Positions 5,078 to 11,274 of a DNA stretch of 64,000 nucleotides are shown here, in pieces. The notes below the pieces were generated by a model. That model did no database searches. It was not told the DNA's origin and was given only the letters and a program-made list of their open reading frames with translations. Location of the stretch: positions 372,001 to 436,000 of the forward strand of contig NZ_RSEB01000002.1 in the NCBI RefSeq assembly GCF_003933745.1. The letters run 5' to 3'. How positions within the stretch are numbered: position 1 is the stretch's first letter; each line of letters starts with the position of its first letter. This DNA is from Glycomyces terrestris. Lineage in GTDB: Bacteria; Actinomycetota; Actinomycetes; Mycobacteriales; Micromonosporaceae. A program made the translations under genes and the position numbers.

Positions 5078-6958
5078 TCACACGAGCGAGTCCTCCCACT
5101 GCCGGTGCAGCGCCGCGTACTCGCCGCCCCGGTCGATGAGCTCGTCCGGGCGGCCGTCCTCGACGATCCGCCCGTGCTCCAGCACCAGCACCCGGTCCGC
5201 GATCTCCACCGTGGACAGCCGGTGCGCGATGATGATCGCGGTCCGGTCGGCCAGGATCGTGCGCAGCGCCCGCTGCACCAGCCGCTCCGAGGGGATGTCG
5301 AGCGAACTCGTGGCCTCGTCCAGGATCAGCACCCGCGGGTCCGCCAGGAACGCCCGCGCGAACACCACCAGCTGCCGCTGGCCCGCCGACAGCCGCCCGC
5401 CCCGCTTGCGCACGTGCGTGTCGTACCCGTCCGGCAGCGCCTCGATGAACTCGTGCGCGCCGACGACCTTCGCCGCCTCCACGATCCGCTCCCGCGGCGC
5501 CCCCGGCAGCCCCAGCTCGATGTTCTCCGCGATCGTGCCGTTGAACAGGAAGTTCTCCTGCGTGATCATGACGATGTGGCGCCGCAGCTCCGCCTCCGAC
5601 AGGTCCCGCAGGTCCACGCCGTCGAGCGACACCACCCCCGACACCGGGTCGTAGAAGCGGCTCACGAGCTTCGCGATCGTCGTCTTCCCCGCGCCCGTCG
5701 CCCCCACGAGCGCCAGCGTCTGCCCGCCCGGGACCCGCAGGTCCAGCCCCGGCAGCACCACCTGGTCCTCCCGGTACCGGAAGTGCACGTCGTCGAAGCG
5801 CAGCTCCCCGCGCGGCGACGCGATCGACTTCGGCTCCTCCGGCTCGGCCACCTCGATCCGCTCGTCGAGCACGCCCGAGAGCTTCTCCAGCGCCGACGTC
5901 GCCGACTGGAGCACGTTGTAGAACTGCACCAGCTCGTTCAGCGGATCGAAGAACCGCTTCATGTACAGCAGGAACGCCGCCAGCACGCCCAGCTCGGTGT
6001 TGCCCCGCATGACCTGCCAGCCGCCGAACAGCAGCACCACCACCGTCGCCAGGTGCCCGATGCCGCGCATCCCGCCCGACATGAACGCGTTCTGCTGGTG
6101 GCCCTTCGCCTGCGCGTACTGGTTGTCGGTGTTCAAGTCCGCGAACAGCTCCCGGTCCCGCGGCTCGCGCCGGTACGCCTGCACCGCGCGCACCCCGCCC
6201 ATCGACTCCACGAAGTAGACGATCAGGAGCGCCACCGTCTCGCGCGCCTTCCGGTACGCGACCGCCGACACCCGGCTGAACCAGCGGCCCAGCAGCAGCA
6301 TGAGCGGGAACGTCAGCAGCGACACCGCCGCCAGGAGCGGGTCGATCACCAGCATCACGATCGTGATCGTGACGACGTTGAGCCCGGCCAGGACCAGGTC
6401 GTCCACGCCGTTCTCCGTCATCTCCCGGATCGACTCCATGTCGGAGCTCTGCCGGGCCGTGACGCGCCCCGACGTGAACCGCTCGTGGAACGACACCGAC
6501 AGGTCCTGGAACTTGCGGAACACCCGGTTGCGCAGCGCGAACAGCATCGCGTTGCCGACCTTCGCCGACTGCGCGATGTACAGCCGCACGCACACGTACT
6601 TCAGGACCGACACCAGCGCGAACACCGCCGCGATCCCGACGAGCAGCGAGTAGTCGCCGCGGTCGGCGATCGCCGGGATCGCATTGTCGATCCCGAACAT
6701 GACCAGCAGCGGCGTCGCCATGCTCGTGAAGTTCTGCACCACCAGGATCGCGCACAGGAACGCGATCCCCTTCTTGTGCGGGCGCATCATCCAGCCCAGC
6801 AGCCGCCGGCTCTGGAGCCGCAGCTCCTTGATCGACGCCGCGTCGTCGACCTCGGCGCTGGTCCGGTCCGCCTCCGCGGACTCGGCGCGCCCCCGCCACG
6901 ACGCGTGCTTGTCGTGCTTCTCGGTCTTGGTCTCGGTCTCGTTCACGGCCGCGGTCAC
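5078..6958 (-). CDS. ABC exporter half-transporter with consensus ATPase site (second gene of heterodimer)
   Basis: 626 aa. Six membrane segments in the first ~350 residues (ABC_membrane), then an ABC ATPase domain: Walker A VGATGAGKTT, signature LSAGQRQ, Walker B VLILDEATSSLD with the catalytic Glu, and switch His in IIIAHRLSTV. The GTG start at 6958 overlaps the stop of the upstream gene (GTGA), so the two halves are made together. Its partner has a degenerate Walker B, the usual arrangement of heterodimeric type IV exporters such as TmrAB or BmrCD. Likely role is efflux of drugs, lipids or peptides across the cytoplasmic membrane; the substrate is unknown. Confidence 0.88.
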   Translation of the reverse strand: MTAAVNETETKTEKHDKHASWRGRAESAEADRTSAEVDDAASIKELRLQSRRLLGWMMRPHKKGIAFLCAILVVQNFTSMATPLLVMFGIDNAIPAIADRGDYSLLVGIAAVFALVSVLKYVCVRLYIAQSAKVGNAMLFALRNRVFRKFQDLSVSFHERFTSGRVTARQSSDMESIREMTENGVDDLVLAGLNVVTITIVMLVIDPLLAAVSLLTFPLMLLLGRWFSRVSAVAYRKARETVALLIVYFVESMGGVRAVQAYRREPRDRELFADLNTDNQYAQAKGHQQNAFMSGGMRGIGHLATVVVLLFGGWQVMRGNTELGVLAAFLLYMKRFFDPLNELVQFYNVLQSATSALEKLSGVLDERIEVAEPEEPKSIASPRGELRFDDVHFRYREDQVVLPGLDLRVPGGQTLALVGATGAGKTTIAKLVSRFYDPVSGVVSLDGVDLRDLSEAELRRHIVMITQENFLFNGTIAENIELGLPGAPRERIVEAAKVVGAHEFIEALPDGYDTHVRKRGGRLSAGQRQLVVFARAFLADPRVLILDEATSSLDIPSERLVQRALRTILADRTAIIIAHRLSTVEIADRVLVLEHGRIVEDGRPDELIDRGGEYAALHRQWEDSLV

Positions 6959-8760
6959 GCCGCCACCTCCTCAGGCTCTGCGGAGAGCACGTCGACGTAC
7001 TCGGGACTGGACGCCATCAGCTCGGAGTGCGCCCCGAAGGCCGCGATCCGGCCCTCGTGCAGCAGCGCCACCTTGTCCGCCAAGGCGACCGTGGACGGCC
7101 GGTGGACCACGACGAGCGCCGTCGTCCCCCGCAGGACCTGCGCCAGCGCCCGCTCCACCAGCTCCTCGGTGTGCACGTCGAGCGCCGACAGCGGGTCGTC
7201 GAGGACGAGCACGGCCGGGCGCACCACGACGGCGCGGGCGAGCGCGAGCCGCTGGCGCTGGCCGCCGGACAGCGACAGGCCCTGCTCGCCGATGCGGGTG
7301 TCGAGCCCGTACGGCAGGTCGTACACGAACTCGGCCTGGGCGACGCGCACGGCCTCCTCGAGGTCGCGCTCGTCGGCGTCGGGCCGGCCGAGGGCGAGGT
7401 TCTCGCGCACGCTCATCGAGAACAGCGTGGCCTCCTCGAACGCGGTGGTGACGACCGAGCGCAGGTTCTCGAGCCGGAGGTCGCGGATGTCGGTGCCGTC
7501 CAAGAGGATCCGGCCGCCGGTCGGGTCGTGCAGCCGCGATGGCAGCGAGACGAGCGTGGTCTTGCCCGACCCGGTCTTGCCCGCGATCGCGACGGTCTCG
7601 CCCGGTTCGACGCGCAGGTCGACGCCGCGGAGGATCTCGCGGGAGTCGTCCTCGAACGCGAAGCGCACGCCCTCGAAGACGAGTTCGCCGCGCACCTCGC
7701 TGCGCTCGACCGCCCTCGCGTTCGGCCGGTCCTTGATGGCCGGCTCGGTGTCGAAGACCTCGTAGACGCGGTCGGCGGCGGTCATGGCCTCGTTGCCGTG
7801 CGCCATGACCCAGCCGGTGGCCTCGATCGGCCACAGGAGCGCGAGCTGGAGCATGATGAACGCCGTGAGGTCGCCGACCGACAGCGTGCCCCCGGCGACC
7901 ATGGTCGAGCCGAACACGAGGACGGCGCCCACGGCCGAGGTGGCGATCGCGTCGTAGCCCGACCACGACCGGGACGCGATGAGGCTCTTGAAGATGCTGC
8001 GCGAGCGCAGCTCGGCGGCCTCCTTCTCGAAGCGGGCCGCCATGAGCGGGCCGCGGCCGAGCGCCTTGATCGCGCGGATGCCGAGCGCGGCCTCCTCGGC
8101 CGCGCTGGAGACCTCGCCGGACTGGTCCTGCTCGGACCGGGCCGCGGGCAGGTACTCGCGGAAGAACTTGCGGCCGATGAGGAACAGGGGCACCGCGGAG
8201 GCGGCGACGATGAGCGCCAGGCGCCATTCGATGAACAGCAGCTGGCCCATGATGATGAGGATCATCCCGATCGAGGTGATCGCGAAGACGAGACCGCCGG
8301 CGAAGAACCGCCGGATCATGCCGAGGTCGGAGGTGACGCGGGCGAGGAGCTGCCCGGTCTGCCACCGGTCGTGGAACCCGGTGTGGAGCACCTGGAGGTG
8401 CTCGTACAGGGCGCCGCGGATGTCCTTCTCGATGGCCATCGCGGTGGTGGTCTGGAAGTAGCGCCGCGCCAGCTGGAGCAGCGCGTCGGCCGCGCCGAGG
8501 ACGGCGATGACGCCGACGATCGCGACGAGCCCGGCCATGTCGCCGTCGTGGATCGGCCCGTCGATCGCGCGCCCGACGAGCGGGGGGATCGCGAGGCCGG
8601 AGACGATGTTCAGCAGCACCATCGACCACAGCACCGCGAGGCGGTACCGGTACGGGTACAGGTACTTCTTCATCCGCCACAGGTTCGTCAGCGCCGTCCG
8701 ACGTACCGGGGGAGTGTCAGTTTCGGAATCTTCTGGAGTTTTCAACCGCTCTGAGCCCAC
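6955..8760 (-). CDS. ABC exporter half-transporter with degenerate ATPase site (first gene of heterodimer)
   Basis: 601 aa, six-helix membrane domain followed by an ABC ATPase: Walker A IAGKTGSGKTTL, canonical signature LSGGQRQRLALARAV, Walker B VLVLDDPLSALD in which Asp replaces the catalytic Glu, and His in VVVHRPSTV. The Glu-to-Asp change marks the non-hydrolytic site of asymmetric exporters. The GTG at 8760 follows TAGCTT by the leaderless distance. It is the first gene of the two-gene operon and overlaps its partner by 4 bp. No regulator gene adjoins it. Confidence 0.88.
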   Translation of the reverse strand: MGSERLKTPEDSETDTPPVRRTALTNLWRMKKYLYPYRYRLAVLWSMVLLNIVSGLAIPPLVGRAIDGPIHDGDMAGLVAIVGVIAVLGAADALLQLARRYFQTTTAMAIEKDIRGALYEHLQVLHTGFHDRWQTGQLLARVTSDLGMIRRFFAGGLVFAITSIGMILIIMGQLLFIEWRLALIVAASAVPLFLIGRKFFREYLPAARSEQDQSGEVSSAAEEAALGIRAIKALGRGPLMAARFEKEAAELRSRSIFKSLIASRSWSGYDAIATSAVGAVLVFGSTMVAGGTLSVGDLTAFIMLQLALLWPIEATGWVMAHGNEAMTAADRVYEVFDTEPAIKDRPNARAVERSEVRGELVFEGVRFAFEDDSREILRGVDLRVEPGETVAIAGKTGSGKTTLVSLPSRLHDPTGGRILLDGTDIRDLRLENLRSVVTTAFEEATLFSMSVRENLALGRPDADERDLEEAVRVAQAEFVYDLPYGLDTRIGEQGLSLSGGQRQRLALARAVVVRPAVLVLDDPLSALDVHTEELVERALAQVLRGTTALVVVHRPSTVALADKVALLHEGRIAAFGAHSELMASSPEYVDVLSAEPEEVAA

Positions 8761-8983: not shown

Positions 8984-9733
8984 CTAGGCCAGCAGCTGCT
9001 CGCGGAGCGCGTCGGCCTGGTCGAAACCGGTCGCCGCCACGTAGTCGCGCATCGACCCGAAGCGGGACTTCATCTCCGCGATCGTCTCCAACATCGCCTC
9101 CGCCGGCGTGGTCAGGCCGCTCTCGGTGGCGGGCTTGCCGATGTTCGCGTCGCGCCACGCGCGCCAGCGCGCGATCCCGAAGTTCGACAGCTCGTACTCG
9201 CGGGCGATGTCGGCCTCGTCGACGCCGAGCACCGACAGGAGCGCCGCGGCCACCAGGCCCGTGCGGTCCTTCCCGGCCATGCAGTGGAACAGCACCGGCT
9301 CGCCGGTCGCGATCACGTCGAGCGAGTCGCGGACCGCCTGGTACCCGGCCTCGTACATGCCCGAGTACCGCTGGCGCAGGAACGGCACCACGTCCGAGCC
9401 CGCCGGGTAGTGGCGGCCGATGTTCTCCCACTTGACGTGCAGGAGCTCGAAGTGGTGGAACTCGACGCCGTCGACCTCGGGGAAGCGGCCGGCGATCTCC
9501 CACTCCTCGGCCCGGCGCAGGTCGATCACGTGGCGGATCCCGAGCCGGTTCACGAGCAGGTCGAGGTCGGCCTCGGTCACCATGCCGAGGTTGTCGGAGC
9601 GGAACACCCGGCCGGTCCTGACCCGCTTGCCGTCCGCGGCGTCCCAGCCGCCGACGTCCCGCAGGTTGAAGACCTTCTCGGCGTCGATGAACTGGCGGGG
9701 GAGCGAGTCGAGGGTCGTGCTCTCGAGGGTCAT
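8984..9733 (-). CDS. PtpB-like protein tyrosine/serine phosphatase
   Basis: 249 aa. The phosphatase P-loop HCMAGKDRTGL places the nucleophile at about Cys151; the K-D in the loop is typical of the MptpB / Y_phosphatase3 family, which includes dual Tyr/Ser and phosphoinositide phosphatases. N-terminal FNLRDVGGW and GRVFRSDNLG motifs are also of this family. The start at 9733 was chosen because GGAAGG lies 9 bases upstream; a longer frame to 9775 lacks a ribosome site. No signal peptide, so likely cytoplasmic. It is followed by a terminator and stands alone. Confidence 0.85.
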   Translation of the reverse strand: MTLESTTLDSLPRQFIDAEKVFNLRDVGGWDAADGKRVRTGRVFRSDNLGMVTEADLDLLVNRLGIRHVIDLRRAEEWEIAGRFPEVDGVEFHHFELLHVKWENIGRHYPAGSDVVPFLRQRYSGMYEAGYQAVRDSLDVIATGEPVLFHCMAGKDRTGLVAAALLSVLGVDEADIAREYELSNFGIARWRAWRDANIGKPATESGLTTPAEAMLETIAEMKSRFGSMRDYVAATGFDQADALREQLLA

Positions 9734-9885
9734 GCGGGTGCCTTCCTGTCGGGGGGACATGGTCGGATCGGGCAAAGCGAACGGCGCGGACCGAAGCGGT
9801 CCACGCCGTCGTAGCCCTGTTCCATTATCCCGATCGGTCCGCGAACGTCCTCATGCGTCCGAACCAACCCCGGGAGAACGGCGGG

Positions 9886-10083
9886 TTGCGCCTACTTCGA
9901 GGCCCCGGCCAAAGCCAGGCTGCGCTACTTGGTTCCTTCCGCAAGCTGCAAGCTGCGCTACTTGGTTCCTTCCGCAAGCTGCAAGCTGCGCTACTTGGTT
10001 CCTTCCGCAAGCTCCAGGCTGCGCTACTTGGTTCCCTCCGCAAGCTCCAGGCTGCGCTACTTGGTTCCTTCCGCAAGCTCCAG
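9886..10083 (-). repeat. 33-bp tandem repeat copying the 3' end and stop codon of the DUF349 gene (5 near-identical + 1 degenerate copy)
   Basis: Near-identical 33-bp units occupy 9919-9951, 9952-9984, 9985-10017, 10018-10050 and 10051-10083. The first unit met by the ribosome (10051-10083) encodes the last residues LELAEGTK and the TAG stop of the DUF349 protein. Each following unit encodes (R)SLELAEGTK or SLQLAEGTK and its own TAG in the same frame (stops at 10024, 9991, 9958, 9925). A sixth, diverged unit at 9886-9918 still reads SLALAGASK-TAG with the stop exactly 33 bp further (9892). The array sits entirely downstream of the coding region except for the first unit. Confidence 0.92.
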
Positions 10084-11274
10084 GAACTGCTTCTTGCTCG
10101 CCAGGTCCGCCTCGGCCTTCTTGATCCGGCCGGCGTTCCCGTCCGCCTTGGCGCGCGCGAGCTTCTCCTCGGCCTCGGCGACCTGCTGGCGCATCTGGAG
10201 CAGCAGTGGGTTCTCCTCGACCGGGACCTTGCGCCACGCCGTGTCGAGCGCGTCGCGGAGCTTGTCCTCGACGTTGCGCAGGCGGCGCTGGAGCTTCGCC
10301 TGGTTCTTGCGCGGGACCGCGCCGATGTCGTGCCACCCGGCCTGGAGCTCGCGGAACGCCTGCTGCGCGGCCTTCGGGTCGGCCTCGATGTCGAGCGCCT
10401 CGGCCTGCTTGAGCAGCTCCTCCTTGGCGGCCTGGTTCGCCTCCAGCTCCGCGTCGCGGGCCGAGAACACCTCGGAGCGCGCGTTGAAGAAGACGTCCTG
10501 CGCCGCCCGGAACCGCTTCCAGGCCTTCTGCTCGGCGTCGGGCGCGAGCCGCCCGGCGTCCTTCCACTCGGCCATGAGCCCCTTGAGCGCGTCGGCCGTC
10601 GGCCCCCAGTCCTGCGAGGTCGACAGCTCCTCCGCCTTGGCGATGAGCTCTTCCTTCTTCTGCGCGATCACCTTGCGCTCGGCGTCGAGCTGCGAGAAGT
10701 AGGCCCCGCGGTGGCGCGTGAACGTGTCGCGCGCGGCCGAGAAGCGCCGCCACAGCTTCTGATCGGTCTTCCGGTCGACCCCGTGGATCGCCTTCCACTC
10801 CTCGATCATCTCGCTGAAGCGCTGCCCCGACGCCTTCCAGTGGCTGTCGCGGGCCGCCAGCTCCTCCGCCTCGGCTACCAGGGCCTCCTTGGCGGCGACG
10901 GCCTCGGCGCGCTCGGACTCCTTGGCGGCCTTGAACTCGCCGAGCTTGTCCTCGGCGTGCTTCGACAGCCCGTCCAAGCGGGCCGCCAGGCCCTCGACGT
11001 CCCCCACGACCGCGGCGGTGTCCAGGCCCTCGCGGAGCTTGCGCAGCTGCGAGGCCGCCTGCTCCACGTCGGCCGACTCCGAGTTCAGGCGCGCGGCGAT
11101 GAGATCGACTTCCACGACGAGGTCGGCGTACTTGCGCGCGAAGTGCGCGAGCCCCTCCTCGGTCGAGCCGGCCTGCCAGGAGCCGACCGCGCGCTCGCCG
11201 GAGGAGGTCTTCACATAGACCGTGCCGTCGGCGTCGATGCGGCCGTAGCTGGTCCAGTCTCCGAGGTCACTCAT
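10057..11274 (-). CDS. DUF349 domain-containing coiled-coil protein
   Basis: 405 aa, soluble, highly charged and helical. It has an N-terminal region common to actinobacterial members (MSDLGDWTSYGRIDADGTVY) and then three tandem DUF349 modules with repeated W-x(n)-A-x(n)-L-x-x-EWK patterns (HWKASGQRFSEMIEEWK, DWGPTADALKGLMAEWK, ELQAGWHDIGAVPRKNQ). The biochemical role of DUF349 is not established. The ATG at 11274 is preceded by GAGATT at the leaderless distance. The C-terminus LELAEGTK is the first unit of the downstream tandem array, so readthrough of the TAG would add ten-residue steps. It faces miaA divergently. Confidence 0.85.
   Translation of the reverse strand: MSDLGDWTSYGRIDADGTVYVKTSSGERAVGSWQAGSTEEGLAHFARKYADLVVEVDLIAARLNSESADVEQAASQLRKLREGLDTAAVVGDVEGLAARLDGLSKHAEDKLGEFKAAKESERAEAVAAKEALVAEAEELAARDSHWKASGQRFSEMIEEWKAIHGVDRKTDQKLWRRFSAARDTFTRHRGAYFSQLDAERKVIAQKKEELIAKAEELSTSQDWGPTADALKGLMAEWKDAGRLAPDAEQKAWKRFRAAQDVFFNARSEVFSARDAELEANQAAKEELLKQAEALDIEADPKAAQQAFRELQAGWHDIGAVPRKNQAKLQRRLRNVEDKLRDALDTAWRKVPVEENPLLLQMRQQVAEAEEKLARAKADGNAGRIKKAEADLASKKQFLELAEGTK

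Follow-up and report, generated by a model that had tools for sequence, protein, structure and literature searches.

Mycobacterial MIRUs are tandem units that stand next to gene ends; they contain stop codons inside the units and are interspersed at many loci. Bacterial minisatellites (VNTRs) are built from head-to-tail units of tens of bases, their copy number varies between genomes, and units are more alike within one genome. In Borg elements, according to the passages of the describing paper that concern repeats, tandem repeats can begin inside the end of an ORF (PMC9879509), and to that extent the type of array described here is already known. The same passages describe Borg repeats as perfect, A-enriched, numerous and located in archaeal elements (PMC9879509), whereas the present array is a single, imperfect, GC-rich chromosomal locus. 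Among the literature matches listed, no title dealt with a stop codon that is repeated where a bacterial gene ends.

The array is found at the 3' end of a DUF349 gene of Glycomyces terrestris, of a genus of soil bacteria, in a 64-kb stretch of DNA that was analysed as a whole (the window; Table 1). Each 33-bp unit consists of the last eight codons of the gene, a TAG and 6 nt. Like the minisatellites, it has head-to-tail units of at least 10 bp with high identity, and their copy number varies among 22 species; it differs from them in that the unit spans a stop codon and that variation was seen here between species only. It resembles MIRUs in the similar scale of the units at gene ends, but the Glycomyces core is found at one locus. 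REP and BIME elements are palindromic units at many sites; the 33-mer lies at one locus. The array appears to be a commonplace unstable repeat whose position is unusual. It is probably a locus-specific minisatellite spanning a stop codon and changed by slippage or recombination, in which the first stop would buffer the protein and contraction may swap the coding end.

An earlier note on this DNA, made from the sequence alone, reported that the coding end of the gene is tandemly copied together with its stop. This copying is real: six units were found head to tail, and as the note also claimed, the TAG is in the frame of the gene in all six. The count of five near-identical units and one diverged unit holds if the gene's own end is included, but the extra copies are four near-identical and one diverged. 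The diverged copy adjoins a flank which resembles the sequence directly 3' of the gene stop in G. lechevalierae, G. dulcitolivorans and YM15. TRF described the array as 33 bp x 5.2 with 95% matches and a score of 305, the top of 43 rows for the window. In a background of 464 kb of the genome (the window and 20 stretches of 20 kb, one contig; 192 rows), 7 rows outscored it. A period of at least 15 with at least 3 copies was found in 32 of the 192 rows at any identity, and with at least 90% matches in the window array alone. The array is therefore far beyond chance, both by its TRF rank and as the sole high-identity array of its class in the background. Less identical long tandem arrays occur elsewhere in the same genome (L129:7939-8376, L129:3231-3568 and L124:17260-17644 of the background).

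Table 1. Features of the array and its surroundings, in window positions.
Feature	Position	Strand	Remarks
DUF349 gene	10057-11274	-	405 aa, ends LELAEGTK + TAG; ORF list; Pfam PF03993, E 9.6e-58
Whole array	9886-10083	-	six 33-bp units, head to tail
Unit 0	10051-10083	-	coding end, stop (10057-10059), 6-nt spacer
Unit 1	10018-10050	-	32/33 identical to unit 0
Unit 2	9985-10017	-	33/33 identical to unit 0
Unit 3	9952-9984	-	31/33 identical to unit 0
Unit 4	9919-9951	-	31/33 identical to unit 0
Unit 5	9886-9918	-	16/33 identical to unit 0; diverged 3'-most copy, LALAGASK + TAG
Flank, last stop to conserved GATAAT block	9824-9891	-	sequence comparison
Hairpin-like block (ACGGCGTGGACC...GGTCCGCGCCGT)	9781-9809	-	5' of next gene; similar in most of genus
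Tyrosine phosphatase family gene, next downstream	8984-9734	-	Pfam PF13350, E 5.6e-58 for the ORF to 9775; start codon ATG 9732-9734 picked by eye

The comparison covered 22 genomes, one per species: that of the window, 20 labelled Glycomyces and one unclassified actinomycete MAG. All 22 possess the DUF349 gene, with 405 codons in each. Recognisable extra copies are present in 14 of them, and no main branch of the genus tree is without such copies. Two further species (NRRL B-16210 and G. paridis) have remnant-like gene ends by eye, and the remaining six (G. artemisiae, G. lechevalierae, G. dulcitolivorans, YM15, G. arizonensis and G. salinus) have no extra copies. Outside the genus, where the underlying search matched 58 of 61 genomes, no array was seen by eye in the 8 relatives whose gene ends were read. 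The 19-nt core GGAGCTTGCGGAAGGAACC (at most 2 mismatches) was matched in 12 of the 22 genus genomes, in 10 of these at the DUF349 locus; 25 of its 28 places are at this locus and the other three each have 2 mismatches. A 17-nt core (at most 1 mismatch) was found in 13 of 300 family genomes, namely 10 of the genus at the DUF349 locus and three outside the genus, all of the latter single 1-mismatch hits. The repeat has one match in the window's own genome. With this single match, and with the genus places of the core concentrated at one locus, an interspersed repeat of the MIRU kind was rejected. A 66-bp unit with a GC-rich half, found in some of the species, gave matches of E<=1 in all 22 genomes (5-23 each among the matches listed), mostly weak ones at other places and possibly due to composition only. 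Weak matches of the GC-rich half-unit elsewhere in the genus genomes, such as G006:C78:144996-145034, may likewise be explained by GC composition.

With the MAG excluded, the gene tree of the other 21 species requires at least 6 changes between presence and absence of extra copies, and at least 14 changes of the hand-scored copy-number state. In three species without extra copies (G. lechevalierae, G. dulcitolivorans and YM15) the distance from the stop to GATAAT is 65 nt. Measured from the first stop, it is 65 nt plus whole 33-bp units in the window's species, G. sambucus, G. amatae, G. luteolus, G. harbinensis and G. algeriensis. Among the 9 array species for which this distance was taken, these 6 have an array length divisible by 33, the exceptions being G. 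niveus (65), TRM65418 (98) and G. albidus (68). The excess over 65 nt is 23 nt in NRRL B-16210 and -11 nt in G. artemisiae; the measure leaves out eight species. Strings of stop plus spacer agree completely in 19 of 33 pairs taken within a species, vs 55 of 463 pairs taken between species. For example, both strings of the MAG are TGAGCGCAGC and both of L485 are TAGCCCGGC. This greater likeness within than between species suggests recent, separate expansions in each species.

The frame of the gene is not generally maintained in the arrays of the genus. Unit lengths of 32, 34 and 65 nt also occur, and the frame was lost in 5 of the 14 arrays (G. niveus, TRM65418, G. buryatensis, G. albidus and the MAG). 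In the other nine, the next in-frame stop after the first is the next array stop, 10 codons on in six species and 21 in three. The distance is 43 codons in G. niveus, 54 in TRM65418, 70 in G. buryatensis and 44 in G. albidus, and the MAG has an out-of-register TGA 6 codons past the first stop. By hand count, 24 of the 30 extra copies that could be scored have a stop where one is expected, and six have lost it (one in G. amatae, two in G. tenuis, one in L485, two in G. albidus). Each 65-66-nt unit was scored once in this count, the last L485 copy (TAG one codon early) was scored as lost, and the interrupted G. harbinensis piece, the unresolved second copy of the MAG and the degraded G. xiaoerkulensis tail were left out. 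Comparing the locus across genomes, as the earlier note had proposed, thus revealed the copy-number differences and most of the stops, but also losses of frame and of stops. The importance it gave to a 33-bp period for keeping the frame was not borne out, and no more than the first stop would be needed to buffer the protein. A conserved in-frame extension, the mark of programmed stop readthrough, was not found, the frame being lost in 5 of the 14 arrays.

The gene end is hypervariable. In five close species (G. lechevalierae, YM15, G. niveus, G. luteolus and G. algeriensis) the last 24 nt have 25% differing sites per pair vs 2.9% in the gene body, roughly an eightfold difference and rank 1 of 398 windows along the gene. 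Third positions of the last eight codons show 5.62 changes per site vs 1.82 in the body when 22 species are compared, again rank 1 of 398. Synonymous codon identity at the gene end ranks 398 of 398 when all species are taken together, the lowest value in the gene. In a set of seven core carriers, by contrast, the end has an ordinary to high identity (0.918 vs 0.825, rank 90 of 398). Because of this last value, the core itself may be vertically inherited. Its rare codons recur in several branches; in the rest of the DUF349 gene, CTT makes up 0.4% of Leu, GGA 7% of Gly and GAA 9% of Glu codons. The ends of 9 species without an intact array (G. albidus, with degraded copies, included) were also compared with the nearest of 11 array species. 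The G. lechevalierae end matches the noncoding last copy of G. niveus at 18 of 24 nt vs 15 of 24 for the G. niveus coding copy, and the G. artemisiae end matches the last copy of G. sambucus at 21 of 24 vs 17 of 24 for its coding copy. Four of the nine (YM15, G. arizonensis, NRRL B-16210 and G. salinus) lean to the nearest relative's coding copy, and three (G. dulcitolivorans, G. paridis and G. albidus) are tied. The pattern is uneven across species (two for, four against, three ties), and it suggests that contraction would sometimes turn a downstream copy into the coding end. The gene end drifts fast, probably as a result of the minisatellite.

The 3'-most noncoding copies vary in a codon-like manner. 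Fitch changes by codon position are 23/7/23 across 11 copies, 14/5/19 across the 9 with a retained stop and 7/4/13 across the 6 that are in frame. The bias has a permutation P of about 0.006-0.009 on two trees, in a test which assumes independent sites and uses a small sample. Coding ends of the same 11 species have fewer changes (6/3/9, P 0.08). For the 8 species whose flank could be aligned, changes per third position are 1.88 in the last copies and 0.52 in the gene body; the flank has 0.95 changes per site. Out-of-frame last copies are as peptide-like as in-frame ones (LALAEGSE in G. niveus, LELAEGAK in TRM65418, LQIAEGAK in G. buryatensis), so translation through the stop is unlikely to have preserved them. 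Selection on in-frame stops, which had been put forward for the diverged copy of the window, or on readthrough is unlikely on the same grounds. Simple neutral decay since the genus ancestor predicts no codon-like variation, and concerted evolution or recent coding use must therefore be added. The last copies would be accounted for if they had exchanged sequence with the coding copy or had themselves recently been the coding end.

According to the minisatellite explanation, the last eight codons, the stop and the 6-nt spacer of the DUF349 gene would have been tandemly duplicated early in Glycomyces. Since then, slippage or recombination between copies would have produced repeated expansion, contraction and homogenisation in each lineage. 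Ribosomes are expected to end at the stop of the first copy, so copy number would be nearly invisible to selection on the protein, in frame or not. Contraction could delete the first copies and make a downstream or hybrid copy the coding end; such a swap would leave the last 24 nt highly variable and the peptide still roughly LxLAEGxK. A neutral minisatellite was among the options of the earlier note and is supported, as copy number differs between species and units are alike within species. Its statement that units can be gained or lost without changing the protein is also supported, since the first stop should act as a buffer whether or not the frame is kept. Its hint that the array is old is partly right: it agrees with the copies in every main branch, whereas the near-identical units of any one species seem to be of recent origin. 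The locus would be a clean natural example of a repeat whose stop codon protects a protein against the instability of the repeat, and in Glycomyces its copy number could be used as a marker. The array gives no evidence for a new decoding mechanism.

A different reading, rather doubtful, is that the downstream copies are silent gene-end cassettes and that deletion or conversion within the array swaps the copy which encodes the C-terminus. It would cover both the hypervariable end and the codon-like last copies, because copies would be coding in part of the population or would have been so recently. If it is true, which strains of one species differing in the first copy would indicate, the array would be a reservoir for switching that is protected by stop codons and attached to an ordinary chromosomal gene at its end. 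Retention as a 3' mRNA element of the DUF349 gene (a transcript end, a stability element or a protein-binding site) is unlikely. The evidence for it comes from G. amatae, G. harbinensis, TRM65418 and G. xiaoerkulensis, in which 35-36 GC-rich bases, here called the half-unit, lie between a core copy and the next stop (the third G. amatae unit ends in CAG). Folding z values in these species are -1.69, -3.21, -2.74 and +0.76, respectively. The number of shuffles that fold as well as the 65-66-nt unit is 0 of 200 in G. harbinensis, 2 of 200 in TRM65418, 13 of 200 in G. amatae (weak) and 152 of 200 in G. xiaoerkulensis. Stem changes between G. amatae (GGTCGCC/GGCGACC) and G. harbinensis (GGTTGCC/GGCAACC) look compensatory by eye. 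However, the window array folds no better than its shuffles (z +1.10, 172 of 200 as good), single and double window units have no excess structure (z +0.75 and +0.53), Rfam gave no match up to E 1 in 9600-10300, and six of the 22 species do without an extra copy. A 3' RNA role of the half-unit in its four species is possible, and the half-unit itself may be an inserted palindrome or a diverged unit.

Backup stops or programmed readthrough, with copies retained to bring readthrough to an early end or to give it a defined tail, are very unlikely. The short distance to the next in-frame stop in nine arrays, the stops kept in most extra copies and the codon-like last copies would fit such a role. 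So would the changes in the core plus half-unit (57 nt, three species; 3/2/8 by codon position), which are confounded by the hairpin and accompanied by a broken frame in the fourth species. Both roles, suggested in the earlier note, nevertheless fail as general explanations given the varied unit lengths and the lost frames and stops, and the out-of-frame last copies are as peptide-like as the others. It is less likely still that an integrative element repeatedly replaced the 3' end of the gene, with the core as its attachment-site end. Recurrence of the rare-codon core in several branches and the native look of the last copy speak for it. Against it, the 22 genus genomes contain no second site with 0-1 mismatches and only three places with 2 mismatches, and the 330 nt 3' of the stop reach the conserved block or the start of the next gene in 21 of 22 genomes (by eye; the MAG is cut off). 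No match was found in 72,556 plasmid and 50,697 phage records, and 7 viral matches to the 17-mer show no extension, with 20-23 of 33 positions agreeing when the 17 are counted; a plasmid or phage origin of the core was rejected on these grounds. An assembly artefact is the least probable explanation. Short reads can miscount repeats, and the MAG contig ends inside its own array, some 109 nt beyond the first base of the DUF349 stop, as if the assembly broke at the repeat. Extra copies are nevertheless present in fourteen separate assemblies, many with species-specific units.

Around the array, NCBIfam gave no name for the DUF349 gene or the phosphatase gene, and scans of 9600-10400 for sigma-70 promoters and T-tailed terminators found none. 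The hairpin-like block may be a candidate terminator or leader. The GATAAT block and the inverted repeat (9781-9829) recur in most of the genus and are missing in G. buryatensis, where the start codon of the next gene lies just 3' of the array. On the same strand, 3' of the phosphatase gene, two minus-strand ORFs (5078-6958 and 6955-8760) overlap by 4 bp and, from motifs picked out by eye, read like ABC transporter subunits.
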